A DNA stretch of 64,000 nt from Shinella sp. PSBB067 (lineage in GTDB: Bacteria > Pseudomonadota > Alphaproteobacteria > Rhizobiales > Rhizobiaceae). This document shows, piece by piece, positions 27,441 through 44,544 of the stretch (position 1 is the stretch's first letter; each line of letters opens with the position of its first letter). The position numbers were made by a program, and so were the translations under genes. The stretch lies in the NCBI RefSeq assembly GCF_016839145.1, contig NZ_CP069303.1, positions 3,162,001 to 3,226,000 on the forward strand, written 5' to 3'. The notes beneath the pieces are model-generated. The model did not search any database. It was not told the DNA's origin and saw nothing but the letters and a program-made list of their open reading frames with translations.

Positions 27441-28080
27441 TCCTTATTCCATGCCGAAACACACCCTGATGATCAACACCAGCCTGCTGGATGGCGCCGA
27501 TATGCCGAAGAGTTGGGCCGAACTCGCGGACCCCAAGTGGAACGGCAAGATCATCGTGGCCAATCCGAACAACAGTTACATGGGCTTTACCGTCTCCTGG
27601 GGACTGTGGAAGGCCCTCGACGAAAAAACCTACAAGACTATCGTCTCGAATCTCGTCGTGACGGAATCATCGTCCGGTGTCCAGAAGGCCGTCGCCATGG
27701 GCGAATATGCCATCGGCATCGGTTTTGAATGGAACGCCTACAACTACATTGCCGGCGGCCAGGATGAATTGAAGGTCGTCTATCCCGCGGAAGGCACCTT
27801 CCTCAGCACCGAGTATGCCGGCCTTGTGAAGAATGCGCCCGCCGGGGACGCGGCAAAGAAGGCAATCGACGTCCTTCTTTCGAAGGATACCCAGATCGAA
27901 CTCCTGAAGGTCGGGTTTCGCCGTCCGAGCCGGTCCGACATCAATGTGACCGACTATGTCCAGATGCCCGCGCTGGATACGATCAAGACCATTCCGATCG
28001 ACGAACTTGCAGCCGCCGACGCGCGCGAGGGCTTCCTCAAGGAGTGGGACGCGTTGCCGAAGGCTGGCGAGAGCAAGTGA
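27440..28080 (+). pseudogene. ABC transporter solute-binding protein, N-terminus removed by IS21
   Basis: The frame resumes after the IS21 end as PYSMPKHTLMINTSLLDG and continues KSWAELADPKWNGKIIVANP, MGEYAIGIGFEWNAYNY and KKAIDVLLSKDTQIELL to a stop at 28080. These are the middle and C-terminal lobes of a family 1/6-type (iron or thiamine-like, AfuA/FbpA-like) periplasmic binding protein. The signal peptide and about the first 130 residues are missing. It differs from the PotD-like protein at 42360, so it belongs to another, lost transporter. Confidence 0.8.
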
Positions 28081-28348: not shown

Positions 28349-28660
28349 ATGTCGGATAAAATCGAGCAGAAAGAGCCGTTGTCTTTGAAGGACTTTATCC
28401 GGGCAGAGGCAACGGCGCACGCCAGGCCGCTTCAGGACAAAGAGCGACGTCACTGGAAGACAAACCCTGTCAGCGGCGCGATATCAGGCCTTCTCATGGG
28501 TTCTGGCATGGCGGTACGGGGCGCTTCGGCGAGCCGACGTTATTTTACCGCGAGCGGAATGGCAATCGAAGGCATTGCGCGATCAGGCGCCGGCCGGGGG
28601 CATGATCGCACGCTTGAAGATTTCGTGCAGGAGCTTGACGAACCGGTCCACCGCCTGTGA
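28349..28660 (+). CDS. Doubtful small ORF overlapping the LysR 3' end
   Basis: Starts MSDKIEQKEPLSLKDFIRAEA with AAAGG 8 nt upstream. A central Gly/Met-rich stretch (GAISGLLMGSGMAVRG) could be a membrane segment. The last 26 codons are antisense to the end of the LysR gene. No family is recognised. It may be a 3'-truncated remnant or chance. Confidence 0.3.
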   Translation: MSDKIEQKEPLSLKDFIRAEATAHARPLQDKERRHWKTNPVSGAISGLLMGSGMAVRGASASRRYFTASGMAIEGIARSGAGRGHDRTLEDFVQELDEPVHRL

Positions 28661-29488
28661 ACGGGGAGCGTGCTCGGAAAGGACGATGGCAAAGTTGAAG
28701 GGGATGTCGGGCTCGAATTCGAGGATGCGGACGCCGGAATTCCTGAAGACCGCCGCCGTCAGCGGGTCCACCACACCGATGCCGAGGCCGCTTTCGACCA
28801 TCCGGCAGACGGCATAGGCCGACGTCGTCTCGACCCCGTTCTCGACCGGCACGCCAGCCTCCCGGCAAGCCGCCCTCATCGCGTGCCCGATGGAAAGATC
28901 CTCCGATATGCCGATGGTGCGTTCGCCCGCGAGATCCGCAAGGGCGATGCGCGGTCTTTCTGCCTTGGGGTGGTCCCTCGACAGGACGCATTTGCAGAAG
29001 GGCTTGTAGACGCGCTCCACGATGACGCCGGGGTAGTCGACGGGAAACGCCGCTATCCCCACATCGATCTGCTGGCTCGACACGAGCTCCAGCACCCGTG
29101 AGGACGCCTGGACCTCCAGCCTGATCTTGAGATCCGGGAAGCCCTCGTTCATGCGCACGACGGCCTCGGGCACCGCACCGAGTGAGGCGGCGGGGAAGGA
29201 CGCGATCCGCAGCCGGTCGTGCTTGAGGTTGGCGATGTCCCGGGCTGCGCCTTCGAGGCTTTGCAGGCCGTGGTAGACCCTCTGCACATGCTTGAAGAAC
29301 GCCTCGCCCTCCGGCGTCGGGATGATGCGCCCCGGAATGCGGGTGAACAGGCTGAAGCCGACGGACTGCTCCAGGTCCTTGATCAGCCGGCTGATCCCCG
29401 GTTGCGACACGTTCAGGAAATGCGCCGCGTCGCTGACGCTGCCGGCCAGCATGACCGCACGATAGGCCTCGACCTGATTGAACTTCAT
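28583..29488 (-). CDS. LysR-family regulator, OccR/NocR-like
   Basis: 301 residues. HTH: VEAYRAVMLAGSVSDAAHFL and VSQPGISRLIKDLEQ, then RIIPTPEGEAFFKHVQRVY. This N-terminus closely follows the opine regulators OccR and NocR. The effector domain contains VVERVYKPFCKCVLSRDHP and SAYAVCRMVESGLGIGVVD. It lies 108 bp downstream of, and on the same strand as, the amine oxidoreductase alpha gene, and is the best candidate regulator of the 15-kb catabolic operon above it. No signature of its binding site was found. Confidence 0.9.
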   Translation of the reverse strand: MKFNQVEAYRAVMLAGSVSDAAHFLNVSQPGISRLIKDLEQSVGFSLFTRIPGRIIPTPEGEAFFKHVQRVYHGLQSLEGAARDIANLKHDRLRIASFPAASLGAVPEAVVRMNEGFPDLKIRLEVQASSRVLELVSSQQIDVGIAAFPVDYPGVIVERVYKPFCKCVLSRDHPKAERPRIALADLAGERTIGISEDLSIGHAMRAACREAGVPVENGVETTSAYAVCRMVESGLGIGVVDPLTAAVFRNSGVRILEFEPDIPFNFAIVLSEHAPRSQAVDRFVKLLHEIFKRAIMPPAGA

Positions 29489-29596
29489 CCTTCACCCTCC
29501 AGTGCATCTTCTGTCGAAGCGAAACGCTTCATGTCGGACAATGCGATGGAACAGGACTTCGCCGCATGCCCGACGGATATCGCCTTTCGCAGAAGG

Positions 29597-30985
29597 TTAC
29601 GAGAACTCCACGTCGTTCGAAACGCCCTCCGTCTTCATGCGCGCCAGGGCATCCATCGGCAAGGGCCGGATCGGGGAACGGACATTGTAATAGCCGATCT
29701 CGTCATGGCTGCGCCCGGAGGCCGCCGCAAACAGCTCCGTCACCGTCAGCCCGCAATTGCGCCCCTGGCACGGCCCCATGCCGCAGCGGCTGAAGAATTT
29801 CGCCTGGTTCGGCCCGAGACACCCCGAGCCCGCAAGATCCGAGATCTCGCCCGCTGTCACGCTCTCGCATCGGCATGCGACGGTCTGCCTGTCGGGCAGC
29901 CTGAACCGGGCGGCGGGCCTGTAGAGCGCGTCGAGGAACGGCCGTATCGCATCGGCCTTCGAAAAGGCCCGGCCGAGCGCCGCCTCGGCGTTCCCGTCCG
30001 TCTTACGTGACAGGTCGGCCGCCGCCGCGAAAGCGGCAAGCCGCCCGCAGAGCCGCGCCGCATCGGCCCCCATGATTCGCGCATTGTCCCCCACCGCGTA
30101 GATGCCCGGAACGGATGTCCGCCAGTTGCGGTCGAGCCTGGGGAGGAAACACGCCTGCGCCTCGCTCCAGGCAAATTCGCAACCGAGATGCCTGAGGAGC
30201 TGCACATTCGGCACGACGCCGTGATGGAGGAGAAAGCAATCGGCGGCGATCGTTTCCGACCGGCCCGCCGCGGTGAACACGATGCACTCGGCCTTGCCCT
30301 CGCCGACGATCTCCAGGCTCTTCACATGGCGTATCCTGCGGGCGGAAATCTTCCGCAGCATCTTCAGCCCGTCGAGGATCTGCAGGAAACCCGCCGGCCC
30401 GAACCGGGCGTGGCGCACGGCCTTCCAGTAGTTCCGCCGCGGCGTCGTATCCAGGATCGCCTCGATATCCGCGCCGAGCCCGATGAGCTGGCTTGCCACG
30501 AGATAGAGAAGCGGCCCGCAGCCGGCCAGCACGATGCGCCCCTGCGGGATCGCGGCGCCGGCCTTCATGGCGATCTGCGCCGCACCGGCCGTCATGACGC
30601 CCGGCAGGGTCCAGCCGGGAACGGGGAATGGCCGCTCCATCGCCCCGGTCGCGACCATGATGGCCCCGGCCTTGAGCTCGCCGAGCTCGCCGTCACGCAG
30701 GTAGTGAACCACCTTGTCGGGCGAAACGTGCCAGACCGTCGCGTTGCAGCGGATATCCAGCCCCGCGTCGCGGACCTGCCGGACGAGAGCGCTGCCGCCC
30801 TGATAGGTCTTGCCGAGCACGGTCCGGACAATGGGGGCGAGACCGTCGACGTTGCGGTAGATCTGCCCGCCGGGCGACCCGTTGTCATCGAGGACAACCA
30901 CAGACAGGCCCAGCTCTCGCGCCTGGAGCGCTCCGGCAAGGCCGGCGGGCCCGCCGCCGACGACGAGCAGGTCACATCGTTCCAT
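29597..30985 (-). CDS. FAD/NAD-binding oxidoreductase alpha subunit, opine oxidase OoxA/HcnB-like
   Basis: 462 residues. The N-terminal FAD motif is DLLVVGGGPAGLAGAL, with SPGGQIYR. The NAD domain has GRIVLAGCGPLLYLVASQL, then GIYAVGDNARIMG. The C-terminus carries a BFD-like Fe-S segment: CRCESVTAGEISDL, CGMGPCQGRNCG. This is the large subunit of the OoxA/NoxA, LhpF and HcnB group, which feeds electrons from amine oxidation. ATG 30985 has AGGA 8 nt upstream; ATG 30994 is an alternative. It overlaps the 2Fe-2S subunit gene. Confidence 0.87.
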   Translation of the reverse strand: MERCDLLVVGGGPAGLAGALQARELGLSVVVLDDNGSPGGQIYRNVDGLAPIVRTVLGKTYQGGSALVRQVRDAGLDIRCNATVWHVSPDKVVHYLRDGELGELKAGAIMVATGAMERPFPVPGWTLPGVMTAGAAQIAMKAGAAIPQGRIVLAGCGPLLYLVASQLIGLGADIEAILDTTPRRNYWKAVRHARFGPAGFLQILDGLKMLRKISARRIRHVKSLEIVGEGKAECIVFTAAGRSETIAADCFLLHHGVVPNVQLLRHLGCEFAWSEAQACFLPRLDRNWRTSVPGIYAVGDNARIMGADAARLCGRLAAFAAAADLSRKTDGNAEAALGRAFSKADAIRPFLDALYRPAARFRLPDRQTVACRCESVTAGEISDLAGSGCLGPNQAKFFSRCGMGPCQGRNCGLTVTELFAAASGRSHDEIGYYNVRSPIRPLPMDALARMKTEGVSNDVEFS

Positions 30986-31268
30986 GGGCGTCATCCTGTC
31001 TTTTCACGATCATGCCGGCGCGCACGGCCGTCCTGCATGCCAGCACATCCCGGATGCCGTCGACGACGACGCGGCATTCGAAGCAGGCGCCCATCAGGCA
31101 ATAGGCAAGCCTGTCGTCGCCGGATACCGGATTGACGTTGAAACAGCCGATCCCCTGCTCCAGCAGGGTAAGCGCGAGCATCTCCCCGGCATGGGCCTGG
31201 ACGGGCCTGCCGTCGACCTCGATGGAAACGGGCGATGCGTTCATGTGGTCGAGCGATCGGAACTTCAT
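30972..31268 (-). CDS. 2Fe-2S subunit of the amine oxidoreductase (OoxC/HcnA-like)
   Basis: 98 residues with a plant-type ferredoxin fold close to the N-terminal domain of sarcosine oxidase alpha. The Cys ligands are in CLMGACFECRVVVDG and VLACRTAV. The N-terminus is VSIEVDGRPVQAHAGEMLALTLL. It overlaps the genes on both sides (ATGA with the DAO-type subunit, 14 bp with the alpha subunit), as expected for one heterotrimeric enzyme. Confidence 0.88.
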   Translation of the reverse strand: MKFRSLDHMNASPVSIEVDGRPVQAHAGEMLALTLLEQGIGCFNVNPVSGDDRLAYCLMGACFECRVVVDGIRDVLACRTAVRAGMIVKRQDDAHGTM

Positions 31269-32374
31269 GCGCGGCTCCGCGAAAAATGAGGCAGGCGGGC
31301 CTCCAGATCGTCGTCGGCGATCGCCTTGGCAAGGATCGAGGCATGCAGGGGCGCGAGCGTCACGCCGCTATGGACATTGAGGGCGAAGGCCCCGGCATGC
31401 GTCGGCGAGCGCAGGTAGCGCGGCACGCCGTCGTCGGTGAATGTCCTGAGCCCGCCCCACACCCTCAGCAGTTGCGCGCAGGCAAGGCCCGGGAAACAGC
31501 CGATCGCCTTTCTGGCGATGGCGGCCATGACCTCAGGCGTCGTTCCGGAATCGAAGCCGACCTCCTCGCGGGAATCGCCGAGGATGAAGCCGCCCTCGGG
31601 CATCTGCCGGATCGTGTGGGTCGGGAAATGCAGCATCCGGGGCAGTTTGCTCGTCACGAGGATCTGGCCGCGCACCGGGCGCACGTCCATGGAGATATCC
31701 ACCATCGCGCCGAGGCGGTTGTTGCCGAGCCCGGCCGCCAGCACCAGCTTGCCGCAGCTATGGGTCGAATGCGCCGTGGCGACTTCGAATCCGCCGCCGC
31801 TGCGGCGGATGCCGGTGACGGTATGGGAGTTGCGGTATTCCCCGCCTTCGGCGACGAAGGCGGCATTCACCGCGCGCAGCAGCAGCAGCGGATTGACCGC
31901 ACCGTCCTGGCGGCCGTAGCAGGCCCCGAAAACGAGGGGGCCGAGGCCAGGCATCGCCCTGTCCAGCTCCGGGCGGGCCAGCATCTCGTAGGCGCCGGGC
32001 ACCGGCAGGTCCGCATCGAACTGCCTTGCCATGAGCGCGCGGCGCGCCTCGAACTCCTCCTCCGACAGGCACAGGTAGAACGCCCCCCTGTCCTCCAAGC
32101 CGACATCGATCCCCGTCAGGTCCTTCAGGTAGAGGGCAAATTCCGGCCAGCACCGCGAGGCCTCCCGCGAAAGTTCGGCATAGGGCCGGACCTTGTGCCC
32201 CTTGGTCTGGACCCAGACCAGCCCGAAATTCCCGCGCGAGGCGCGGTGGTCGTCGTCCTCGCCGTCGAGGATGAGGACGGACAGCCCCTGCCGCCTGAGG
32301 CCGATCGCCGTCGCCGTGCCGACGAGCCCGCCCCCGACGACGACGATATCGTGGACCGTCCTACTCGGCATCAT
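31265..32374 (-). CDS. FAD-dependent oxidoreductase beta subunit, DAO family (OoxB-like)
   Basis: 369 residues of the D-amino-acid oxidase/sarcosine oxidase fold. FAD motif HDIVVVGGGLVGTATAIGL and, near the C-terminus, LRVWGGLRTFTDDGVPRYL and LNVHSGVTLAPLHA. It is the catalytic subunit that oxidises a secondary amine or imino acid in OoxB, LhpB and HcnC relatives. Start is the tandem ATG at 32374/32371, overlapping the HyuB stop by 14 bp. The substrate cannot be read from the sequence. Confidence 0.88.
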   Translation of the reverse strand: MMPSRTVHDIVVVGGGLVGTATAIGLRRQGLSVLILDGEDDDHRASRGNFGLVWVQTKGHKVRPYAELSREASRCWPEFALYLKDLTGIDVGLEDRGAFYLCLSEEEFEARRALMARQFDADLPVPGAYEMLARPELDRAMPGLGPLVFGACYGRQDGAVNPLLLLRAVNAAFVAEGGEYRNSHTVTGIRRSGGGFEVATAHSTHSCGKLVLAAGLGNNRLGAMVDISMDVRPVRGQILVTSKLPRMLHFPTHTIRQMPEGGFILGDSREEVGFDSGTTPEVMAAIARKAIGCFPGLACAQLLRVWGGLRTFTDDGVPRYLRSPTHAGAFALNVHSGVTLAPLHASILAKAIADDDLEARLPHFSRSRA

Positions 32375-34145
32375 GACCGTCGCGCGCCACCCGCTGCCAT
32401 GCCGCCGCACCGGCGGCCAGCCGGTCGCCGCCATGCAGAAGCCTGTCGACCCTGCCCGCACCGTAGACCTTTCGCGCCTGCGCGACGGAGACCTTTCCGT
32501 CGGCGATATCGTCGGCGATATCCTGGTCGCGCCGACCCGAAGGAAGGCCGTAGCCGCCCCCGCCGGGCGTTTCGATGCGGATGCTGTCGCCCGTGCTCAG
32601 GACGAGATTGGAGGTCTTGGAGCCGATATCCTGCTCGTCGGCCGAGCCGAAATTGAACCTGATCCGCGCACAACGTCCGGCATCGCCGCCGCCAAGGCCC
32701 GGCGCCGGATAGACATGGCCGTCCGAGCGGACCGAGAAGATGACGCCGTCCTGCGTCGCGGCGATCTGCCGGGCGATGCCGAGGCCGCCGCGAAACGTGC
32801 CGGCGCCGCCGCTGTCCTCGACCAGCGCATATTCGTCGACGAGCAGGCTGTACTCGTGCTCCAGCGCCTCGACCGGCAGGTTCGACGTGTTGGTGACATG
32901 AAGCTGGACGCCGTCCATCCCGTCGACCGAGGCGGTTCCGCCCGATCCGCCGCCGACGGTCTCCATGTAGACGTAGCTCGAGCCGTCGCCGCGATGCCCG
33001 GCAAAGCAGATTCCGGGAACGATGTCCTGCCCCGAGGCGATGCCGCGGTCGGCCGGCAGGATCTGTGCGAGCGCGCCGATGATGGCGCGCGCCACCTTGT
33101 TGGCGGTGATCGACCGCGCGCCGACGGCCGCCGGATGATGCGGGCTCACGATCGACCGCTCCGGCGTGACGATACGCAGGCACTGGAAGACGCCGTGATT
33201 GGGCATGAGGCCCGGGTCGATCATCATCTTGATGCAATAGACCACGGTGGCCTGGAGAGCATTGAACGGCACGTTCATGGCGCCCGTCGCCTGCCGGTCC
33301 GTACCGGTGAAGTCGAAGACGAGGGTTCCCTGCTCGATGCGCACGAGAGCCTGAATCTTCACCGCGATGTCGGTGACGCCGTCGTCGTCGAGATAGGCCG
33401 TGAAGCTCGCCTGCTTGCCTTCCAGCGGTGCGAGCCGGTTGCTCAGCCGCTGCCGGGTATAAGCCAGCATGTCGGAGACGATCGACGCGAACCGCCCGTC
33501 GCCGACCTGGGCCAGAAGCTCCTGCGCCATGACCATGCCGCGGTCGTTGGTCGCGAGCTGGACGCCGAGGTCGAGCTCGCGTTCCTCGGGATCGCGCGTG
33601 TTCACCGATACGAGGCGCAGAATGTCCCGTTGCAGCCGCCCCTCGGCCCGCAGGCGCACCAGCGGGATACGGATGCCCTCCTCGAAGATGGTCCGCGCCG
33701 TTCCGGAAATCGAGCCCGGGACCGCACCGCCTACATCCGAGTGATGGGCGATATTGGCGAGGAAGAACGCAATCCTTCCCTGATGGAAGACGGGCGAGAC
33801 GATCGTGATGTCGGGAAGATGGGTGCCGCCGGCCAGATAGGGATCGTTGCACATGAAGGCGTCGCCCTCACGGATGTCGGCGAGGTCGTATTCCTCCAGC
33901 ACGCGGGTCACGGCGCCGAGGGTGGAGCCGAGATGCAGGGGCGTGTGGTCGGTCTGGGCCAACACCCTGCCCTTCGCGTCGAACAGGCCCACGGAGCAGT
34001 CGCGCCGTTCCTTGACATTGGTGGAGAAGGAGGAGCGCACGAGAATGTGCAGCATGCTCTCGACGATCGCCATCAGCCGGTTGTTGTAGACTTCCATTGC
34101 GATCGGATCCGAAACGGTGTCGCGATCTGCGGCGGGATTTGCCAT
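32361..34145 (-). CDS. hyuB: Hydantoinase B/oxoprolinase-type subunit (HyuB)
   Basis: 594 residues. Family signatures are DPIAMEVYNNRLMAIVESM, SFSTNVKERRDCSVGLFDA, GDAFMCNDPYLAGGTHLPD and IAHHSDVGG, where the His/Asp residues bind metal and the cyclic amide. The C-terminus contains IETPGGGGYG. With HyuA it makes an ATP-dependent amidase that opens hydantoins, 5-oxoproline or lactams. The start is taken at ATG 34145, next to a GTG at 34148. It follows hyuA by 18 bp. Confidence 0.92.
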   Translation of the reverse strand: MANPAADRDTVSDPIAMEVYNNRLMAIVESMLHILVRSSFSTNVKERRDCSVGLFDAKGRVLAQTDHTPLHLGSTLGAVTRVLEEYDLADIREGDAFMCNDPYLAGGTHLPDITIVSPVFHQGRIAFFLANIAHHSDVGGAVPGSISGTARTIFEEGIRIPLVRLRAEGRLQRDILRLVSVNTRDPEERELDLGVQLATNDRGMVMAQELLAQVGDGRFASIVSDMLAYTRQRLSNRLAPLEGKQASFTAYLDDDGVTDIAVKIQALVRIEQGTLVFDFTGTDRQATGAMNVPFNALQATVVYCIKMMIDPGLMPNHGVFQCLRIVTPERSIVSPHHPAAVGARSITANKVARAIIGALAQILPADRGIASGQDIVPGICFAGHRGDGSSYVYMETVGGGSGGTASVDGMDGVQLHVTNTSNLPVEALEHEYSLLVDEYALVEDSGGAGTFRGGLGIARQIAATQDGVIFSVRSDGHVYPAPGLGGGDAGRCARIRFNFGSADEQDIGSKTSNLVLSTGDSIRIETPGGGGYGLPSGRRDQDIADDIADGKVSVAQARKVYGAGRVDRLLHGGDRLAAGAAAWQRVARDGHDAE

Positions 34146-34163
34146 CACACTTGTCCTCGGCGA

Positions 34164-36200
34164 TTACAATTCGATGATGAGGTTGCCGGCCGTGTCGACA
34201 TGGGCGACCTGGCCGGGGAAGATGACCGAGGTCGAGCTCATGTCCTCGACGATCGCCGGGCCGACGATCCTCGATGAAAGCGGGACGAGGTGGCGGGAAT
34301 AGACCGTCGCATCCACCCACTCCACCTGCGGATCGACGTAGAACCGGCGATGGCCGATGACGGCCTGCGCGAGCTCACCCTCCGGCTGCTCGACGGTGCT
34401 GCGGTCGGCCGCGGTCGCCGCCAGGCCACGGACCCGGAAATTGACGATCTCGATCGCCCGGCCCGCAAGCGCATATCCGTATTCGCGCTCGTGCGCCTCC
34501 TCGAAGGCGGCAAGGAAGCTGCCGGCATCGGGGTCGTCAGCCGCGATCCGCACCTGGACCTCGTGGTTCTGGCCGACATAGCGGGCTTCCAGGATGCTCT
34601 CGTAGCGGCGGCGGTGCGGCGGGATTTCCTCTCCCGCCAGCCAGCTTTCCGCATCGTCGCGCAGCTTGGCGATGATCGAGACGATATCGGCCCATTGCGC
34701 GTCGCCGAACCTGCAGATCCTGCTCTGGACGAAATCGAGGCTGGTGTCGGAAACGAGGATGCCGCGGGCGCACATCGTTCCCGGCTCGTTGGGCGCGACG
34801 ATGGTCTTGAGGCCGCAGTCGATCGCGGTTTCCACCGCATGCAGCGGACCCGCCCCGCCGAAGGTGACGAAGGAATAGTCGCGCAGGTCGATGCCGCGCT
34901 GCGTCGTGACGGAGCGGATGGCGCGCGCCATGTTCGAAACCGCGATGCGGATGATGCCGTAGGCCGCCTGCTCGACCGACAGGCCGAGCGGCCTTGCGAC
35001 CTTCTCCTCGATGACCCGCCACGCGCCCTGGTGGTCGACCGGCATGGCCCCGTTCAGGAGCGCCACTGGGTTCAGGCGGCCGAGCACGACATTCGCATCG
35101 GTGATCGTCGGTTCCGTTCCGCCCCTCATGTAGGCGACCGGTCCCGGCACGGCCCCGGCGCTGCGCGGGCCGACCTGAAGCCCGCCGGCATCGTCGATGA
35201 AGGCGATCGAGCCACCGCCGGCACCGATGACATGGATGTCGACCATCGGCGTCTTGACCGGATAGGTCGCGACCTCGCGGGTCGTCGTGAACTGGGGCTT
35301 GCCGCCGGAAATGACGGAGATGTCCGTGCTCGTTCCGCCGACATCGAAGGTGATGGCGTTGGGATGGCCGGCCTGACCGGCAATCGCGGCCGAGCCGATG
35401 ACACCGGCCGCCGGGCCCGAGAGGCACGTGCGCACGGGATAGCGCTTGACCGTCTCGATCGACATCAGGCCGCCGTTCGAATGGATGGTATAGGGCTTCG
35501 CGGTGATGCCGAGGCGGATGAGCCGGTCGACCAGCCGGTCGAGATAGAGTTCGAACTTCGGCCCCAGATAGGCATTGATCGTGGTGGTCGAGAAGCGCTC
35601 GTATTCGCGGAATTCGGGCAGGACGTCGCTCGACCGGCAGACGAAGGCGCCCGGCATCATTTCCCGGACGATCTCCTCCGCCCGAATCTCATGGCCGGGG
35701 AAGAGGTAGCTGTGCAGGAAGCAGATCGACACCGCCTCGACGCCGTCTCCCGCAAGACGCTCGACACCGCGGCGCAGCTCGCTTTCGTCGAGCTCCAGAA
35801 GGCATTCCCCCCGGGCGTTCACGCGCTCCTGCACCTCGATACGGTGACGGCGCCTTGCCAGCGGCTCGGGCTTGACGGAGCGGTAGTCGTAGACGTTGGG
35901 GCGCACCTGGCGCCCGATCTCCAGCACGTCCCGAAAACCCTTGGTGGTGATCAGGCCGGTCTTCGCGCCGCGACGCTCGATGACCATGTTGGTGCCGACG
36001 GTCGTACCGTGGCCGACGAAGCCGATATCCCCATCCCTGAAGCCGAATTTCTCCATCGCGCCGGCAATGCCGGTTTCGATCGCCTCGGACGGATCGCGCG
36101 GCGTGGAAGGCTCCTTGTAATACCGGATCGCTCCAGAATCCGAGTCGACGAAAACAAAATCGGTGAAGGTTCCGCCAACGTCAATTCCAACTCGTATCAT
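34164..36200 (-). CDS. hyuA: Hydantoinase A/oxoprolinase-type ATPase subunit (HyuA)
   Basis: 678 residues with the acetate/sugar kinase-like ATPase fold: IRVGIDVGGTFTDFVFVD at the N-terminus and ITFDVGGTSTDISVI as second phosphate loop, then FVTFGGAGPLHAVE. It phosphorylates the amide oxygen of the cyclic substrate so HyuB can hydrolyse it. MIRVG at 36200 is the family start; an extension to 36248 is not supported. It is separated from the aldehyde dehydrogenase stop by 164 bp, the largest internal gap of the cluster, so a second promoter is possible. Confidence 0.93.
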   Translation of the reverse strand: MIRVGIDVGGTFTDFVFVDSDSGAIRYYKEPSTPRDPSEAIETGIAGAMEKFGFRDGDIGFVGHGTTVGTNMVIERRGAKTGLITTKGFRDVLEIGRQVRPNVYDYRSVKPEPLARRRHRIEVQERVNARGECLLELDESELRRGVERLAGDGVEAVSICFLHSYLFPGHEIRAEEIVREMMPGAFVCRSSDVLPEFREYERFSTTTINAYLGPKFELYLDRLVDRLIRLGITAKPYTIHSNGGLMSIETVKRYPVRTCLSGPAAGVIGSAAIAGQAGHPNAITFDVGGTSTDISVISGGKPQFTTTREVATYPVKTPMVDIHVIGAGGGSIAFIDDAGGLQVGPRSAGAVPGPVAYMRGGTEPTITDANVVLGRLNPVALLNGAMPVDHQGAWRVIEEKVARPLGLSVEQAAYGIIRIAVSNMARAIRSVTTQRGIDLRDYSFVTFGGAGPLHAVETAIDCGLKTIVAPNEPGTMCARGILVSDTSLDFVQSRICRFGDAQWADIVSIIAKLRDDAESWLAGEEIPPHRRRYESILEARYVGQNHEVQVRIAADDPDAGSFLAAFEEAHEREYGYALAGRAIEIVNFRVRGLAATAADRSTVEQPEGELAQAVIGHRRFYVDPQVEWVDATVYSRHLVPLSSRIVGPAIVEDMSSTSVIFPGQVAHVDTAGNLIIEL

Positions 36201-36364
36201 TCCTGCATTCCCCGGCAAAACCGCTCGCGTCCAGACCGGACCCGGCATTCAAGCCTCTTCTGAATCAAACTGGCAGTAAGAGACCAAAAATAGAGCCGCG
36301 TAGCTCATACCAATTGGGTGGAAGCCGCCAAAAGTTTGATATCCTCGCCGGCTCCCTCTGCGTT

Positions 36365-37828
36365 TCACAGGCCCCGGGCCTCGATCCGCGTGTTGACGAG
36401 CCTGTAGTGAAGGTAGCTGTCCAGCCCGCGCTGGCCGCCCTCATAGCCGTAGCCGCTTTCCTTGATCCCGGAGAACGGCGTTGCTTCCGTGACGGTCGCC
36501 GTCGTGTTGACGAATACCCCGCCGGCCTCCAGCCGCCCGGTCATGCGGTCGATGCGCTCGGGCGATGCCGTGAAAAGATAGGCCGCAAGCCCGTAGGGTA
36601 GGCCGTTGGCGATCCCGAGCGCCTCTTCCTCGCCGTCGAACACGTGGATCGGCGCGAGCGGGGCAAAATATTCTTCACGCATGATGGCGCTGTCGAGGGG
36701 GGCCTCGACGATGACCGTGGGCTCGAAAAAATAGCCTTTCCGATCGAGGACCCTGCCGCCGGTGACGATCTTCCCGCCACGGGCGACGGCATCCTCGACG
36801 ACGGCTTGCGTCGCCCGCAACCGTCCGGCATGGGCGAGCGGCCCCATGTCGACCCGTTCCGCCAGACCGTCGGCGACGACGAGGGCCTCGGCACAGGCCG
36901 TGAAGACGGAAACGAATCGGTCGTAGGCAGGGCGCTCCACGAGAATGCGGCTCGGGGCGGTGCAGACCTGCCCCGCATTGGCAAATTTCGCGGCGGCGAT
37001 CTGCCTTGCCGCGACCTCGATGTCGCTGTCGGCGAAGACGATCGCCGCAGAATGGCCGCCCAGTTCAAGGCTCGCCGGCTTCACGCCGTCGGCGGCCAGC
37101 CGTGCCAGCGTCCTGCCGACGGGGATGGACCCCGTCAGCGAGATTTTCCCGACGACCGGTGCAGCGAGCAACTGGCTCGATATGTCGGCGGGCCGTCCGA
37201 AGAGCAGGCTGAGGTACCCGTCCGGCAGGCCTGCCGCCTGCAACGCGCGCACCAGTTCGACCGCTGCGCCGGGCGTCTCCTCCGCCGCCTTGAGGATGAC
37301 GGGGCATCCCGCGGCGAGCGCCATGGCCAGCTTGCGTCCGGCAAGGACGAGTGGAAAATTCCAGGCCGTGAACGCCGCGACGACGCCGACCGGCACTGGC
37401 CTCGATATGCGGCGTATCGGCTGGCCGCCGTCATCGAGCTCGATATCCTTCAGGTGCCCGGCCAGTCTGCCGAAGTAACGGAACAGGTCCACCACGCGAT
37501 CGACCTCGAGCCTTGCCTGCCGCAGGGGCTTGCCCTGCTCCAGGACGATCGTGAAGGCGATCTCGTCCGCTCTTCCGGCAAGAAGATCCGCGGCCCGGTG
37601 AAGGACCGCCCCCCGCGCGGACGCGGGGAACTCCATCCAGCCCGCGAAGGCGCGCGCCGCACAGGCCAGCGCATCGCCGACGATCGCCGGGGTGGCGGTG
37701 GGAAGCCTGGCGAGACATTCCTCCGTCGCCGGGTTCAGCACGTCGACCGGCGGTGAATCCGTCCGCGTCAGGAATTGCCGGCCGACGAAGAGGCCGAGCT
37801 GCGGGTAACGATAGCCCGAGGGCAGCAT
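36365..37828 (-). CDS. Aldehyde dehydrogenase, succinate-semialdehyde dehydrogenase-like
   Basis: 487 residues of the NAD(P)+ ALDH superfamily. Visible motifs are FTAWNFPLVLAGRKLAMALA, ILKAAEETPGAAVELVRAL, the catalytic Glu in SLELGGHSA and the catalytic Cys in NAGQVCTAPSR, with the C-terminal PFSGIKESGYGYEGG. The last block and overall similarity fit GabD-type enzymes that oxidise omega-semialdehydes to diacids. It follows the aminotransferase gene by 16 bp, consistent with consecutive reactions. Confidence 0.92.
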   Translation of the reverse strand: MLPSGYRYPQLGLFVGRQFLTRTDSPPVDVLNPATEECLARLPTATPAIVGDALACAARAFAGWMEFPASARGAVLHRAADLLAGRADEIAFTIVLEQGKPLRQARLEVDRVVDLFRYFGRLAGHLKDIELDDGGQPIRRISRPVPVGVVAAFTAWNFPLVLAGRKLAMALAAGCPVILKAAEETPGAAVELVRALQAAGLPDGYLSLLFGRPADISSQLLAAPVVGKISLTGSIPVGRTLARLAADGVKPASLELGGHSAAIVFADSDIEVAARQIAAAKFANAGQVCTAPSRILVERPAYDRFVSVFTACAEALVVADGLAERVDMGPLAHAGRLRATQAVVEDAVARGGKIVTGGRVLDRKGYFFEPTVIVEAPLDSAIMREEYFAPLAPIHVFDGEEEALGIANGLPYGLAAYLFTASPERIDRMTGRLEAGGVFVNTTATVTEATPFSGIKESGYGYEGGQRGLDSYLHYRLVNTRIEARGL

Positions 37829-37844
37829 GGTATTCTCCTGTCCG

Positions 37845-39230
37845 TCACGCGTAGCCGGCATGCTGCCCTACCATTTCGGCCGTTTCGGCAAGGGCGTCGG
37901 AAAAGCGGGTGAACATCTCGTCGACCTCGCTCTCCGTGATGATCAGTGGCGGGCAGAAGGCGATGGTATCGCCGATGGCGCGGACGATCAGCCCATGCTC
38001 CAGGCACCGCGCGGCGCAATAGGCCCCGACCTTGAGCGCGGCCGGGAACTGTGCCTTGCTTGCGGGATCGGGCGACATCTCGACGGCGCCCAGCAACCCT
38101 ACCCCGCGCGTGTCGCCGACGATCGGGTGCCCGGCAAAGCCGTCGATGCGCTTGAGGAAATGTTCGGAGACCTTCCTCGCATGGGCGAAGGTCGATCGCC
38201 TTTCGTAAATTTCCAGCGTCTTCAGCGCAACGGCGGCCGAGACGGGATGGCCCGAATAGGTGAAGCCATGGGCGAGCGCGCCGTATTTCTCGCTGCCGGC
38301 CATCAGCGGCTCCCATATCGACGGCGCGACGACGGCGGCCGAGATCGGCAGGTAGGCGGACGAGAGGGCCTTCGCCATGGTGATGACATCGGGCTTCAGG
38401 TCGTATGTCTGCGTCGCGAAGGCGTTCCCGGTCCGGCCGAAGCCGCAGATCACCTCGTCGGCGACGAACAGGATGCCGTAGGATTTCAGGACCTTCTGGA
38501 TCTTCTCGAAATAGCCGGCCGGCGGGGGAACGACACCGCCGCCCGCGATGACGGGATCGGCGAAGAAGGCCGCGATCGTATCGGGCCCCTCACGCTCGAT
38601 GACCTCGACGAGGTCCCGGGCGCAGCGTTCGGAGAACTGCTCCTCGCTCTCCCCCGGCAGGCCCTCGCGATAGTAGTCGGGGCACATGCACTTGACGAAC
38701 CGGTCGAGCGGCAGGTCGAAACCGGCATGGCAAGCCTCGAGGCCCGTCATGGACGCCGTCGCGATGGTGACGCCATGATAGCAGCGGCGCCGGGAGATGA
38801 TCTTCTTCCTGTCCGGCTTGCCGGTGATATTGCTGACATGCCAGATGAACTTGATGATGGTGTCGTTTATTTCCGAGCCCGAATTGGCGAAGAACACGCG
38901 CCCGTCCTCGATCGGCACCATGTCCTTGAGGCAATCGGCGAGCTCGATGGTCGGGCGCGGCGCCATGCCGTTGAAACTGTGATAGGTCGGCAGCGCCTTG
39001 AGCTGGGCGTAGGCCGCTTCCGCCAGTTCCGGCTCGTTAAAGCCGAGCGAGGTGCTCCAGAGGCCGCCGAGGCCTTCGATATAGCTGCGCCCCTCCTCGT
39101 CGGTGACGTAGATCCCGTGCCCGCTTTCGATGACGAGCGGGCCGTTCTGCTGGTGCGTCGCCAGATTCGTGTAGGGATGGATGAGGGCATTCTTGTCCAT
39201 CTCGGAGTACGACAGGTTCCTGGTGTTCAT
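37845..39230 (-). CDS. Class III omega-aminotransferase (PLP)
   Basis: 461 residues. PLP fold features are FFANSGSEINDTIIK, RRRCYHGVTIATASMTG, the Asp in LFVADEVICGFGRTG and the Schiff-base Lys in VITMAKALSSAYLP. The sequence groups with omega-amino acid:pyruvate and putrescine/GABA aminotransferases. It would convert an omega-amino acid to a semialdehyde for the next gene's product. Start at ATG 39230; 46 bp downstream of the permease stop. Confidence 0.93.
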   Translation of the reverse strand: MNTRNLSYSEMDKNALIHPYTNLATHQQNGPLVIESGHGIYVTDEEGRSYIEGLGGLWSTSLGFNEPELAEAAYAQLKALPTYHSFNGMAPRPTIELADCLKDMVPIEDGRVFFANSGSEINDTIIKFIWHVSNITGKPDRKKIISRRRCYHGVTIATASMTGLEACHAGFDLPLDRFVKCMCPDYYREGLPGESEEQFSERCARDLVEVIEREGPDTIAAFFADPVIAGGGVVPPPAGYFEKIQKVLKSYGILFVADEVICGFGRTGNAFATQTYDLKPDVITMAKALSSAYLPISAAVVAPSIWEPLMAGSEKYGALAHGFTYSGHPVSAAVALKTLEIYERRSTFAHARKVSEHFLKRIDGFAGHPIVGDTRGVGLLGAVEMSPDPASKAQFPAALKVGAYCAARCLEHGLIVRAIGDTIAFCPPLIITESEVDEMFTRFSDALAETAEMVGQHAGYA

Positions 39231-39276
39231 TTCTCTATCCCGCACTTTCTGATGTTAAGCATTGGATCGGCCGCGC

Positions 39277-40056
39277 CTAGCCGGCCACGCTCCTGTTCCT
39301 GGAGCGAAGCATGTGGATCAGGAGGCTGATGATGACCGTCCCAACGATGAGAATGAAGGCGGCCGAGGCGATCGTCGGGCTGATATTCTCGCGGATGGAC
39401 GAGAACATCTGCCGCGCGAGGGTCCGCTGGTTGGGCCCGGCGACGAACAGCGTCAGCACCACCTCGTCCAGCGACGTTGCGAAGGACAGCACCGCGCCGG
39501 AGGCGACCCCCGGCATGATGAGCGGCAGCGTGACGCGCCGGAAGACCACGAAGGGCGACGCGCCGAGGCTCGCGGCGGCCAGCTCCACGCGCTGGTCGAC
39601 ACCGCCGAGCGCGCCCCTGACGCAGATGAGGACGAACGGGGCCGCAAGCACGCTATGGGCGATGATCACCGCGGCGTAGCTGTCCGTGAGCCCCAGGCGC
39701 GGGATGAGCATCTGCAGGCCGATGCCGAGAACGACCGGCGGCACCACCATCGGCAGCATGAAAAGCGTCCTGAAACCGGAGGCGGAAAGCGACACGCGGC
39801 CGCGAAGGCCAAGCGCCGCGGCCGTGCCGAGGCTGGTGGCGAGCACCGTCGTGCCGATCCCGATGACGAGGCTGTTGTAGATCGAACGCCGCCATTCCTC
39901 GTTGATGACGAGCTCCTCGAACCATCGGAAGGACCAGGAAGGGACCGGATAGACGAGAAGCATGCTGGAGGTGAAGGCGAGCGGCAGGATCGCCACCAGC
40001 GGCCCCAGGAGGAAGCCCACCATCACGGTGGAGAAGATCGCCCTCGTCGCTCTCAT
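39277..40056 (-). CDS. ABC transporter permease, PotC-like
   Basis: 259 residues with six hydrophobic segments and the EAA loop ELAAASLGASPFVVFRRVTLP, which docks on the ATPase. The type is the spermidine/putrescine or 2-aminoethylphosphonate permease group. It overlaps the other permease gene by 4 bp (ATGA). Confidence 0.92.
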   Translation of the reverse strand: MRATRAIFSTVMVGFLLGPLVAILPLAFTSSMLLVYPVPSWSFRWFEELVINEEWRRSIYNSLVIGIGTTVLATSLGTAAALGLRGRVSLSASGFRTLFMLPMVVPPVVLGIGLQMLIPRLGLTDSYAAVIIAHSVLAAPFVLICVRGALGGVDQRVELAAASLGASPFVVFRRVTLPLIMPGVASGAVLSFATSLDEVVLTLFVAGPNQRTLARQMFSSIRENISPTIASAAFILIVGTVIISLLIHMLRSRNRSVAG

Positions 40057-41228
40057 GTGCGCCTCTCGGATGAGCCGGAAAGCCGCTCGTAGACGGCATA
40101 GAGGACGACCGTCACCGCCACGAGGATGAGGCCGAGGGCGCTCGCCATGCTCCAGTCGGCGGTGGATGTCGCGTAGAAAGCGATGAAGGAGGACAGCATC
40201 TGCTCTCCGGCGCCGCCGAGCAGAGCAGGCGTGATGTAGTAGCCGAGCGAGGAGATGAAGACGAGCAGTATCCCGGACGCCACACCGCGCGCGGACAGGG
40301 GCAGCAGCACGCGCAGGAAGGCGGAAAGCGGCGGCGCCCCCAGGGACGCTGCGGCCGGCATGAGGTTCTTCGGTATGGTGATGAGGACACTGTAGATCGG
40401 CAGGACCATGAGCGGGAGCTGGACATGCGTCATGGCGATGATGAGGCCGGTCCGGTTGAAGATCAGGGCGATCGGGCCGTTAATCAGGCCGACGGCCTGG
40501 AGCCATTCGTTGATGAGGCCCTTTTCCTGGAGGATGAGGAACCAGGCGGCCGTACGCACCAGAAGCGACGTCCACAGGGGCAGCAGCACGGCGCCGAGCA
40601 GCACCGCCCTCTGGAACCGCGACGCATAAGCGACGACGAGCGCATAAGGATAACCGAGCAGGACGCAGAAGAACGTGACGACCGCGCCGATCCAGAGGGT
40701 TCTGAAGAGAACCGCCCTGTTGACCGCCATATTGGCGTCCTGCTCGACGATGGAGCCGGCGCTGTCACGCTTCAGATCGACGGTCGCGAGGAGATAGCGG
40801 TCGGTGACCGGCTCCAGTGCCGTCGCAATCGCCTCCCAATAGGCCGGCTGCGACCACTTGCGATCAATGTCGAGCAGGTCGAGGGCGCCCGCCTGCTCGC
40901 CGGCCGCCCGGGTCGTCTTCGCCATCAGCGTGCGGAAGCCGGGCTGGATGCTGTTCAGCCTGCGGACCATGTCGCCGAGCGCCTGCTCGTCGTCCGAGGC
41001 CCTGAGGTCCTCGACGAAGGCCCGGAACACCTCGGGCCCGGGATGGCCCGTCCCATCCCAGCTTCCGATGACGGATGCTGTCCGTGGCAGGGCGCGGACC
41101 GCCGATGTGTCCGAGACCGAGAGCTTGAAGATGCCGGCGAGCGGGACGACGAAGAAGAGTGCCAGAAAGCAGAACAGCGGCGCCACCAGCAGGAATGCTC
41201 GGAGCTTTCGGCCTGAGGCTTGGGTCAT
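40053..41228 (-). CDS. ABC transporter permease, PotB-like
   Basis: 391 residues, longer than usual because of a periplasmic insert of about 130 residues after TM1 (residues about 45-180, with RTASVIGSWDGTGHPGPE and PVTDRYLLATVDLKRD). The permease core has LGYPYALVVAYAS and the EAA loop MPAAASLGAPPLSAFLRVLLP. Such inserts occur in putrescine-type permeases of alphaproteobacteria. Overlaps both neighbours by 4 bp. Confidence 0.92.
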   Translation of the reverse strand: MTQASGRKLRAFLLVAPLFCFLALFFVVPLAGIFKLSVSDTSAVRALPRTASVIGSWDGTGHPGPEVFRAFVEDLRASDDEQALGDMVRRLNSIQPGFRTLMAKTTRAAGEQAGALDLLDIDRKWSQPAYWEAIATALEPVTDRYLLATVDLKRDSAGSIVEQDANMAVNRAVLFRTLWIGAVVTFFCVLLGYPYALVVAYASRFQRAVLLGAVLLPLWTSLLVRTAAWFLILQEKGLINEWLQAVGLINGPIALIFNRTGLIIAMTHVQLPLMVLPIYSVLITIPKNLMPAAASLGAPPLSAFLRVLLPLSARGVASGILLVFISSLGYYITPALLGGAGEQMLSSFIAFYATSTADWSMASALGLILVAVTVVLYAVYERLSGSSERRT

Positions 41229-42334
41229 GGCGACACAACCTTGCAGTCCGCGGGGCGCATCGCGACCTCAACCTGCGCGCCCACCGGCCACTGGCGTTCC
41301 TTGCGGTCCAGGCGCGCATGGCAATGGCCGAGGGGACCGTCGAGCTGCACGCGGATATGGTCGCCCTGGTAGACGCTGTCGATGATGGTCATCACGACGC
41401 GGTTGCCGTCCGGAATGCCGCCGGCCCGGTCGTCTCCGAGACCGAGCCTTTCCGGCCGCACCGAGACGCAGACATCGCTGCCCGTCGCAACATCCGGCTC
41501 GCCCGAGACCTTCAGGACAGGGCCGCTCGACAGGCGGACGACATGACAGTCGTGCTCCCTGCCGATCACGGTTCCGTCCCACAGGTTCGTCTCCCCGATG
41601 AACCGGGCGACGAAGCGGGTCTGCGGATCGTCGTAGATGGCCTGAGGGGTTCCGACCTGGTCTATCCTGCCCTTGTTGAACACCGCGATCCGGTCGGACA
41701 TCGTCAGTGCTTCCGACTGGTCGTGGGTCACGAACACGATCGTCAGGCCCAGGCGGTTGTGAAGCGCCCGGATATCGAGCTGCATCTGCTCGCGAAGCTG
41801 CTTGTCGAGGGCGCCCAGCGGTTCGTCCATCAGGACCACCCCCGGCTCGAACACGAGAGCGCGGGCGAGCGCCACGCGTTGCTGCTGGCCGCCGGAAAGG
41901 CTGGCCGGCCTGCGATCGGCGAACGAGCCCAGCTGGACCATGTCCAGGGCCGATGTGACCCGCCCGGCGATATCCGATCGCGTCCTGCCGCGCATCTGGA
42001 GCGGGAAGGCGATGTTTTCCCCGACGGTCATGTGGGGGAAAAGGGAATAGTTCTGGAACACGACACCCATGTCGCGCTTGTGCGGCGGGATGTCGTTGAC
42101 CATGCGGCCATCGACCAGGATACGGCCGTCGGTCACATGCTCGAAGCCGGCCAGCATCATCAGCAGGGTGGTCTTGCCGGACCCGGAGGGGCCGAGGAGA
42201 CTCACGAACTCCCCATTCGCGATGTTGAGATCGAGGTTCTCGACCACGCGGAGCGAGCCATAGTCCTTGCTGACCTTGTCGAAAACGATACGGAAATTCA
42301 CCTGCTGACTTGCCTTTGTTTCCTGATCGATCAC
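41225..42334 (-). CDS. ABC transporter ATP-binding protein, PotA-like
   Basis: 369 residues. Walker A LGPSGSGKTTLLMMLAG, signature LSGGQQQRVALARAL, Walker B VVLMDEPLGALD, H-loop VFVTHDQSEAL, then a C-terminal TOBE domain (VCVSVRPERLGLGD) as in PotA/FbpC importers. It energises the two permeases. Placed 25 bp after the solute-binding protein gene. Confidence 0.94.
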   Translation of the reverse strand: MIDQETKASQQVNFRIVFDKVSKDYGSLRVVENLDLNIANGEFVSLLGPSGSGKTTLLMMLAGFEHVTDGRILVDGRMVNDIPPHKRDMGVVFQNYSLFPHMTVGENIAFPLQMRGRTRSDIAGRVTSALDMVQLGSFADRRPASLSGGQQQRVALARALVFEPGVVLMDEPLGALDKQLREQMQLDIRALHNRLGLTIVFVTHDQSEALTMSDRIAVFNKGRIDQVGTPQAIYDDPQTRFVARFIGETNLWDGTVIGREHDCHVVRLSSGPVLKVSGEPDVATGSDVCVSVRPERLGLGDDRAGGIPDGNRVVMTIIDSVYQGDHIRVQLDGPLGHCHARLDRKERQWPVGAQVEVAMRPADCKVVSP

Positions 42335-42359
42335 GGATCTCCCGTGAGGGACGCGGCCT

Positions 42360-43412
42360 TTACTGGGAGAGCCACGAATTGAACCGCTGCGTCAGGGCTT
42401 CGGAATTGTCGATCCAGAAGTCGATGTTCAGGGGGATCGCGCCTTCCAGGTTGACCGGGTTCGTCGTCAGGTCCTTCTTGATGCTCTCGGGAAGGGCCTC
42501 CGCAGCCTTCAGGTTCGGAATACCGACGGAGAAGTTCGGCGGGAAGTTGACCTGGTTCTCGGGCCGGCTTGCGAACTTGATGAACTCGAAGCCGAGATCC
42601 TTGTTCTCCGCGCCCTTGAGCACGACCCAGCTGTCGATCGCATAGATGCTCTGCGGCCAGACGAGCTTGTAGTTCTTGCCTTCGGTGTTGTTGATACCGG
42701 TGACGCGGCCGTCGTAGCTGGCGGTCATGGCGACCTCGCCGGACGCGAGGAACTGCACCGGCTGCGCGCCGGCTTCCCACCAGATGATGTCCGGCTTCAG
42801 CTCGTCCAGCTTCTTGAAGGCGCGGTCGACACCCTCCGACGTGGAAAGAACGTCATAGATCTCGTCCGCCGGCACGCCGTCCGCAAGCAGCGCAAACTCG
42901 AGATTATACTTGGCGCCCTTGCGCAGAGAGCGCTTGCCGGGAAATTTCGCCGTATCCCAGAAATCGGCCCAGCTCTTCGGACCATCCTTGAACTTGTCCG
43001 CGTCATAGGCGAGTGCCATCGACCAGACGGTCACGCCCGCGCCGCATTCGGAAACCGCGGTCGGAAGGAACTGGTCCTTGACGCCCATCGCGTCCCAGTC
43101 GAGCTTCTCGTAGAGCCCGTCAAGACAGCCGAGCACGAGTTCCTCCGCCTCGACCTGCACGACGTCCCAGTTGACGTTCCCGGACTTCATCTTGGCCTGG
43201 ATGACACCATAGCCGCCGTTCCAGCTGTCCTCGAGCACGGGCTTGCCGACCTTCTCGGAGAACGGCTTGAAATAAGCGATCCGCTGCGCATCCTGGCTGA
43301 CCCCGCCCCACGCGACGACCGTGAAGTCGCGGGCGAGGACGTTGCAGGATCCCGAGAGAATTGCGAGAAGTGCGCCGCCGGTCACGGCGAGTGAATGTAG
43401 GGCAGTTTTCAT
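42360..43412 (-). CDS. Periplasmic solute-binding protein, PotD-like
   Basis: 350 residues with a Sec signal peptide (MKTALHSLAVTGGALLAILSG, cleavage near ARD; a Cys in SGSC could also allow a lipobox reading). The mature part begins FTVVAWGGVSQDAQRIAYF, the polyamine/opine-binding family 1 pattern, with WDVVQVEAEEL and SWVVLKGAENKDLGFEFI. It selects the substrate of the cluster. It is first in the operon, with GGGGA before ATG 43412, and the promoter must lie in 43413-43835. Confidence 0.92.
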   Translation of the reverse strand: MKTALHSLAVTGGALLAILSGSCNVLARDFTVVAWGGVSQDAQRIAYFKPFSEKVGKPVLEDSWNGGYGVIQAKMKSGNVNWDVVQVEAEELVLGCLDGLYEKLDWDAMGVKDQFLPTAVSECGAGVTVWSMALAYDADKFKDGPKSWADFWDTAKFPGKRSLRKGAKYNLEFALLADGVPADEIYDVLSTSEGVDRAFKKLDELKPDIIWWEAGAQPVQFLASGEVAMTASYDGRVTGINNTEGKNYKLVWPQSIYAIDSWVVLKGAENKDLGFEFIKFASRPENQVNFPPNFSVGIPNLKAAEALPESIKKDLTTNPVNLEGAIPLNIDFWIDNSEALTQRFNSWLSQ

Positions 43413-44543: not shown

Positions 44544-44544
44544 G

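Follow-up and report, generated by a model that had tools for sequence, protein, structure and literature searches.

A chromosomal Shinella operon combining HyuAB, an opine dehydrogenase-type trimer and an omega-aminotransferase, with a probable role in the use of an opine and its lactam

The operon studied here comprises 12 genes on the minus strand (28583-43412) of a 64,000-nucleotide stretch of DNA from Shinella sp. PSBB067 (contig NZ_CP069303.1, positions 3,162,001 to 3,226,000; hereafter the window). We consider it probable that these genes form a chromosomal operon, complete in itself, for the use of an opine-type compound and its lactam, the opine most likely being an N-substituted glutamate. 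The gene content, the gene order, the family of each part and the recurrence of a core made of HyuA, HyuB and a three-subunit dehydrogenase were observed directly. The parts are of known kinds and the novelty lies in their combination, the distinctive feature being an omega-aminotransferase and an aldehyde dehydrogenase added to the HyuAB-trimer core. The operon was taken as chromosomal, not carried on a tumor-inducing (Ti) plasmid, because its contig measures 4,605,385 bases. The genes named in the earlier note were all confirmed, as follows.

42360-43412 (minus): solute-binding protein (SBP_bac_8) with 4-aminobutyrate (GABA)- and opine-binding relatives, by Pfam and solved chains; its open reading frame extends to 43571
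41225-42334 (minus): ATP-binding cassette (ABC) transporter ATPase with a TOBE_2 domain, by profile match
40053-41228 (minus): ABC permease, PotB/PotH-like, by Pfam and NCBIfam, under equivalog cut-offs
39277-40056 (minus): ABC permease, PotC-like, by Pfam and NCBIfam, under equivalog cut-offs
37845-39245 (minus): class III omega-aminotransferase of the PRK06105 subfamily, 643 bits against a cut-off of 517
36365-37861 (minus): aldehyde dehydrogenase, succinate-semialdehyde/aminobutyraldehyde dehydrogenase-like, under curated cut-offs
34164-36248 (minus): HyuA-type ATP-binding lactamase subunit, by profiles, motifs and tree, 55% identical to copies in Ti opine regions
32361-34148 (minus): HyuB-type metal-binding lactamase subunit, by profiles and metal residues, 53% identical to a pTiS4 HyuB
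31265-32371 (minus): opine dehydrogenase beta subunit (DAO family, OoxB/NoxB-like), by Pfam, pairwise identity and motifs
30972-31268 (minus): opine dehydrogenase gamma subunit, 2Fe-2S ferredoxin-like, 98 aa, by pairwise identity and motif
29597-30994 (minus): opine dehydrogenase alpha subunit (Pyr_redox_2 plus SO_alpha_A3/BFD-like domain), by Pfam, identity and motif
28583-29488 (minus): LysR-type regulator, by profiles, 35% identical to NocR

From 43412 down to 28583, the order is thus importer, class III aminotransferase, aldehyde dehydrogenase, HyuA, HyuB, trimer and LysR regulator. The gaps between neighbors, from upstream to downstream, are 25, -4, -4, 31, -17, 116, 15, -11, -4, -23 and 108 bases, with overlaps at six of the 11 junctions and spacings of 15-116 bases at the others; the last base of HyuB is 32361, and the frame of the DAO/OoxB subunit opens with an ATG at 32371. 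Pfam scores far exceed their cut-offs (Hydantoinase_B 541 bits, Aldedh 469, Aminotran_3 286 and DAO 193), indicating that the gene set is not a chance assembly. The start of the binding protein is most likely Met54 of its open reading frame (base 43412), judged by eye from the signal-peptide-like stretch that follows it. A 117-aa frame at 30991-31344 was rejected as the 2Fe-2S subunit; it lies in a different frame from the true gene, the 98-aa frame, and has no Pfam or NCBIfam match.

By identity, gene order and motifs, the trimer is a predicted member of the opine dehydrogenase family. The beta subunit shares 44% identity with the annotated OoxB of an octopine Ti plasmid, 43% with a pTiS4 copy, 38% with NoxB and 37% with SacE; the alpha subunit shares 43% with pTiS4, 39% with NoxA and 38% with SacG, and the gamma subunit 43% with NoxC. 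The three genes stand in tandem in the order beta-gamma-alpha, with overlaps of 4 and 23 bases. The beta subunit has the GxGxxG motif for flavin adenine dinucleotide (FAD) at 13 and the R-x-W motif for flavin mononucleotide (FMN) as RVW at 303, corresponding to RQW in NoxB and RTW in a pTiS4 copy. The gamma subunit carries a CX4CX2C...C ferredoxin motif at 57, as in NoxC and SacF, and a CxC...C motif is also present in the trimer. Counterparts of the motif and cofactors reported for the opine dehydrogenase purified from Pseudomonas putida are present here (PMC4575208; this and the other cited articles are drawn on for part of their text). No second copy of this kind was found in the host genome, where the next DAO matches reach 25-30%, and the Octopine_DH profile (PF02317) had no match there, a negative without weight since the profile had none in 14 control genomes either. 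Among five Ti LysR proteins compared, NocR was the nearest to the regulator (35%), which together with the 44% to OoxB supports the earlier note where it describes a lactam-type operon that includes an opine-oxidase-type trimer and a LysR resembling NocR.

HyuAB is predicted to be an ATP-dependent lactamase from its kept ATP and metal motifs. HyuA retains DVGGTFTDF, GAVPGP and DVGGT (read against the motifs in PMC8453981), and D50, H110 and H136 of HyuB align with the metal-site residues D41, H99 and H124 of CapB, the fourth residue, D113, aligning with a CapB Asp that we count as position 102, whereas the described metal residue is D101. HyuA shares 55% identity with the Ti copies of pTiS4 (226-248 kb) and pTiChry5, 46% with Tun198, 40% with a second pTiS4 copy, 36% with pTiEU6 and 34% with pTiC58. 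The earlier note had proposed a comparison with characterized enzymes: N-methylhydantoinase and caprolactamase do appear among the solved relatives (515 and 412 bits), but the Ti copies are nearer (pTiS4 814 bits, pTiChry5 805). In the HyuA tree, which has long branches and no bootstrap, the window copy groups with pTiS4, pTiChry5 and another 30 rows at an approximate likelihood-ratio support (SH-aLRT) of 100, while pTiC58, pTiEU6, Tun198, the second pTiS4 copy and four host paralogues fall outside this group. This tree was built from 43 of 67 rows; the dropped rows that are named were Achromobacter and Bordetella copies, and two of six host paralogues were left out as too short. The host genome has 7 HyuA matches, 6 besides the window copy, and at one of these loci a weak DAO match (26%) lies next to HyuAB.

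Membership in the caprolactamase family, with which the earlier note had compared the pair, did not hold: the CapA and CapB models of NCBIfam gave 556 and 213 bits against cut-offs of 1000 each, and HyuAB was rejected as a caprolactamase equivalog. This bears on a plain lactam pathway (butyro-, valero- or caprolactam), in which HyuAB, the omega-aminotransferase and the semialdehyde dehydrogenase would suffice and the trimer would be an accessory for a different substrate. The nearest solved relatives of the aminotransferase include 6g4b (502 bits), which we take to be the P. jessenii enzyme. The same three enzyme types also form the P. jessenii caprolactam cluster (PMC6061476). With both models far under their cut-offs, with HyuB and the trimer genes overlapping, and with HyuAB and the trimer recurring together, we regard such a pathway as quite unlikely.

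This recurrence was found in public genomes and on Ti plasmids. At 52 loci found by HyuA alone, HyuB was present in 51 and all three trimer genes in 36 (DAO and alpha at at least 38%, 2Fe-2S detected), the trimer genes standing in several arrangements; these loci come mostly from Achromobacter and Bordetella and so are not independent, and some are cut by contig ends. On pTiC58, HyuAB adjoins noxA/C/B in the noc region, and on pTiEU6 it occurs with the trimer, an asparaginase and a Pot-like importer. On pTiS4, HyuAB has 2Fe-2S/alpha genes on one side and a DAO gene on the other, and a full set of trimer genes occurs some 13 kb from it. The coupling of HyuAB to the trimer, which the earlier note had called unusual, therefore recurs on three Ti plasmids (pTiC58, pTiEU6 and pTiS4) and at 36 of the 52 related loci, and we rejected the idea that it is unique. 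At E <= 1e-190, HyuA was found in 4 of 296 other genomes of the family and 6 of 384 others of the class. None of 100 relatives' genomes matched at E <= 1e-250, a threshold that also misses the 55% copies, and when a Mesorhizobium HyuA served as query at 1e-260, none of 393 other genomes of the family matched.

The ring in the Ti lactam cases would be an N-substituted 5-oxoproline, as in succinamopine and dfop. In acid, nopaline, succinamopine and leucinopine cyclize; NocT binds pyronopaline, which is consumed through the noc pathway (PMC4192606). In that paper the interconversion is drawn as spontaneous, and its main text mentions no hydantoinase or oxoprolinase (PMC4192606). HyuAB was already proposed for opine lactams in papers on Ti plasmids, as the enzyme for succinamopine lactams on pTiEU6 (PMC6733357) and in connection with rideopine lactam on pTiAB2/73 (PMC8554961). 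In the nopaline region of pTiC58, the HyuA and HyuB genes (31704-35699) have noxB on one side and a LysR gene on the other, and may be natural candidates for the ring-opening of pyronopaline. On pTiChry5, HyuAB is followed by a SIS-domain protein and a fructoselysine 6-kinase (11962-17646); this set may serve an oxoproline-type Amadori opine through kinase and deglycase, not a flavin dehydrogenase, a context that would presumably fit the oxoproline form of deoxyfructosyl opines.

Based on these relationships, we propose the following pathway, in which every catalytic step, their order and the substrate class are inferred. The LysR protein would turn the operon on and the ABC importer would take up the opine, its lactam or both. 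HyuAB would hydrolyze an N-substituted 5-oxoproline-type ring with ATP to a secondary-amine diacid, and the FAD/FMN/2Fe-2S trimer would oxidize the C-N bond to an imine; this would break down to a 2-oxo acid or to glutamate, with release of an amine or an aldehyde. The omega-aminotransferase and then the aldehyde dehydrogenase would convert the omega-amine half to a carboxylic acid for central metabolism. Since ring opening turns the lactam nitrogen into the secondary amine that the trimer would oxidize, HyuAB and the trimer would follow one logic, and a substrate carrying both a cyclic amide and a separate oxidizable amine, as the earlier note had suggested, is not needed.

Enzymes for the freed half differ among Ti regions: arginase and ornithine cyclodeaminase in noc, asparaginase in sac, and spuC- and gabD-like genes in the rideopine catabolic region (RIC) of pTi932/pTi1078 (PMC10410297). 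In the window, the freed half should be an omega-amine such as putrescine, lysine or GABA, because an omega-aminotransferase and an aldehyde dehydrogenase would meet it. Two compounds are named as unproven candidates: rideopine (2-oxoglutarate plus putrescine) and saccharopine/pyrosaccharopine (glutamate plus lysine). Saccharopine is common in fungi and plants and would satisfy the aminotransferase, the dehydrogenase and the L-configuration together; the nearest Ti copies of HyuA presumably lie in regions connected with vitopine and chrysopine-type opines, which are L-glutamine derived. Rideopine is a D-glutamate derivative (PMC10410297). It fits the gene content and the published proposal of RIC as the rideopine catabolic region of pTiS4, pTiAB2/73 and pTiCA75/95 (PMC8554961, PMC10410297). 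We take RIC on pTiS4 to be the stretch at 98-131 kb, where HyuAB is accompanied by three ABC importers (one of them with a spermidine/putrescine annotation), a class III aminotransferase and a succinate-semialdehyde dehydrogenase. The region around the 55% HyuA of pTiS4 was rejected as RIC; the copy among aminotransferase and succinate-semialdehyde dehydrogenase genes is the 40% one at 123 kb. Rideopine was rejected as a firm assignment because the RIC-like proteins are too distant (24-40%). We therefore commit to a substrate class and not to a compound.

The other pTiS4 region bears on a rival reading, in which the operon would serve a vitopine/heliopine-type opine (pyruvate plus glutamine), with the aminotransferase and dehydrogenase serving a second, unrelated substrate. 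HyuA, HyuB, DAO, 2Fe-2S and alpha proteins all score best against pTiS4 226-248 kb among the Ti proteins compared, although the pTiChry5 HyuA is level with it in identity and OoxB is level for DAO. Vitopine was assigned to a second region of pTiS4 that lies near T-DNA3 and is missing from pTiAB2/73 (PMC8554961), and we infer that this region is the stretch at 226-248 kb. However, the two added enzymes would be left without a role, though the aminotransferase seems to be kept with HyuA in Mesorhizobium contigs. The DAO tree, from which up to 22 rows were omitted (those dropped by name being Achromobacter and Bordetella copies), leaves the place of the trimer among Oox, Nox and pTiS4 copies, and hence the nearest opine type, undecided. 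We regard the vitopine-type explanation as very unlikely and retain an opine whose freed half is an omega-amine.

The association of HyuA with the aminotransferase was traced among the best 120 of 2906, 2158 and 5117 matches (HyuA, aminotransferase and DAO), of which 119, 120 and 120 entered a recount. Among these matches, Mesorhizobium sp. M4A.F.Ca.ET.022.05.2.1 has HyuA (75%), aminotransferase (72%) and DAO (65%) with the same longest contig of 30,400 bases, a Mesorhizobium metagenome-assembled genome has HyuA (73%) and aminotransferase (75%) with 185,218 bases, and a Joint Genome Institute (JGI) metagenome has HyuA (57%) and aminotransferase (59%) with 33,046 bases. Across the 119 x 120 comparison of HyuA and aminotransferase matches, these three sizes alone agreed exactly and 23 pairs lay within 0.5% without being equal; an exact match of such sizes by chance is unlikely. 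As indirect evidence, the equal contig sizes suggest that HyuA and the aminotransferase share a contig in three cases, two from Mesorhizobium and one from a metagenome. At the DNA level, a plasmid search gave only partial matches, the longest covering 11% of the query and lying in transporter genes. Where transporter and aminotransferase genes matched in Shinella and Burkholderia, the surrounding stretches had no annotated hyu or trimer genes; the Sinorhizobium record carries no annotation.

For the binding protein, the best solved relatives are 4eq7, two GABA-sensor chains, 4i1d, MotA, a spermidine/putrescine protein (sixth) and an agropine protein. We take 4eq7 to be the GABA-binding Atu4243. 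The earlier note had held polyamine specificity of this protein, combined with no effect of the hyu genes, to speak against a lactam operon; the best relatives are of GABA/opine type, but the spermidine/putrescine protein ranks sixth and the 4eq7 record itself is titled 'polyamine'. The protein keeps an Arg and an Asp equivalent to R205 and D228 of the Pf622 GABA site, the Arg being kept in five of five aligned relatives and the Asp in four of five. D228 of Pf622 bonds the amino group of GABA (PMC12999171). These residues would fit a zwitterionic amino acid or an opine other than GABA, without naming the ligand.

A further rival is an N-alkyl lactam pathway, in which HyuAB would open an N-alkyl-pyrrolidinone, the trimer would remove the N-alkyl group, and the aminotransferase and the succinate-semialdehyde dehydrogenase-like enzyme would take GABA to succinate. 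The binding protein is nearest GABA-type binders, some aminotransferase relatives among the matches listed are named 4-aminobutyrate-pyruvate transaminase by JGI, and nmpABCDEF comprises the HyuAB-type nmpAB, the amino acid oxidase nmpC and the succinate-semialdehyde dehydrogenase nmpF (PMC12866759). The comparison with nmp is one of gene content. Against this pathway, the opine regions of Ti plasmids are where the affinities of the trimer, LysR and HyuA lie, and the Mesorhizobium relatives would make a man-made solvent an improbable driver. We judge this pathway unlikely, and prefer an operon for an opine and its lactam.

Several points weigh against this preference. None of 61 HyuA loci (the 52 and nine further ones) has a close aminotransferase or dehydrogenase, the best aminotransferase reaching 25% and the best dehydrogenases 32% and 28%, indicating that most relatives of the window HyuAB do without both enzymes. 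Among the nearest HyuA clusters listed (98%, 75%, 73%, 73% and 73%), only two match a listed aminotransferase in contig size, and the substrates of the two added enzymes are not readable from sequence. By the thresholds used, 16 of the 52 loci, a few of them on short contigs, are without the trimer, as are eight of the nine further loci; L095 has it at 41-43%, L093 has a distant one (28-35%) and seven have none. The wider family of the trimer includes D-hydroxyproline and L-proline dehydrogenases and hydrogen cyanide synthase (PMC4575208). The RIC-like pTiS4 proteins share 40% (HyuA), 31% (aminotransferase), 34% (dehydrogenase) and 24% (oxidoreductase) identity with those of the window, so RIC is matched in content but not in descent. 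The rideopine-type plasmids pTi932/pTi1078 are without any hydantoinase genes (PMC10410297), and HyuAB is thus not needed for every RIC. In the binding protein, several aromatic pocket residues differ from Pf622, the kept Asp is Thr in 4i1d, one of the five aligned relatives, and identity to Ti Pot-type binding proteins is 22-25%. Nor did the literature searched report a HyuAB assay with an opine lactam as substrate.

Nopaline, succinamopine, leucinopine and rideopine all form lactams, and a compact chromosomal operon puts all steps in one place, making the role of HyuAB in opine use directly testable. In the literature searched, ring opening of opine lactams is drawn as spontaneous or only proposed as enzymatic (PMC4192606, PMC6733357, PMC8554961). 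If the proposal is true, it suggests that opine use is a wider soil trait and not a Ti-plasmid specialty. Possible, though doubtful, is the bolder form of the proposal, namely a complete non-Ti chromosomal pathway for an omega-amine opine and its lactam (of rideopine or saccharopine/pyrosaccharopine type), with HyuAB as an undescribed family of ATP-dependent N-substituted 5-oxoproline hydrolases whose part in opine catabolism would extend beyond Rhizobiaceae to Achromobacter, Bordetella and Pseudomonas.

Elsewhere in the window, mobile elements include an IS21 pair (25125-27348; istA 25849-27348, istB 25125-25847), another integrase (23965-24795) and a large serine recombinase (56890-58794). 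The IS21 pair abuts a plus-strand frame (region 25125-28080). In its 3' part this frame matches SBP_bac_6, but the match begins only at profile position 58, so that a second binding-protein gene appears to be cut by IS21. Upstream of the operon (43836-49477) lie genes for an ScpB-like protein, a DUF1403 protein and an AAA ATPase plus Peptidase_M41 protein in two overlapping frames, which may be a split FtsH-like pair. Nitroreductase-family, ApbE and Fer2/FAD/NAD-binding reductase genes occupy 59947-63398 on the minus strand. P-type ATPases are found at 4344-6494 and 18483-20972, the latter carrying YHS and heavy-metal binding domains; genes for a sensor kinase and an MgtC/DUF4010 protein lie in that part of the window too, and the group is perhaps a metal-handling island.

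No chromosomal operon of this make-up was described in the literature searched, which left most subscription journals outside. Of the Ti regions compared, pTiS4 226-248 kb gave the highest scores and resembles the window in having HyuAB, an ABC importer followed by DAO, 2Fe-2S and alpha in the same order, and LysR. It differs in lying on a Ti plasmid, in a second, split trimer set around HyuAB, in a RidA gene, and in the absence of an annotated aminotransferase or aldehyde dehydrogenase from the stretch. RIC (pTiS4 98-131 kb) shares HyuAB, the class III aminotransferase, succinate-semialdehyde dehydrogenase, ABC importers and an FAD oxidoreductase, but is carried on a Ti plasmid and has genes on both strands, an N-formylglutamate amidohydrolase and no annotated 2Fe-2S/alpha trimer genes. 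The pTiC58 noc and pTiEU6 sac regions likewise place HyuAB next to an opine dehydrogenase trimer with a LysR regulator; unlike the window, they have HyuA at 34-36% and DAO at 37-38%, and send the freed half to arginase and ornithine cyclodeaminase, or to asparaginase. The P. jessenii caprolactam cluster has a HyuAB-type lactamase, an omega-aminotransferase and a semialdehyde dehydrogenase, whereas the part of its description drawn on mentions no opine dehydrogenase trimer (PMC6061476) and the window HyuAB falls under the CapA/CapB cut-offs. Finally, nmpABCDEF, for N-methyl-2-pyrrolidone, is likened to the operon by description, sharing a HyuAB-type hydrolase, an amino acid oxidase and succinate-semialdehyde dehydrogenase, whereas neither a trimer nor an aminotransferase is mentioned in the part of the text drawn on (PMC12866759).

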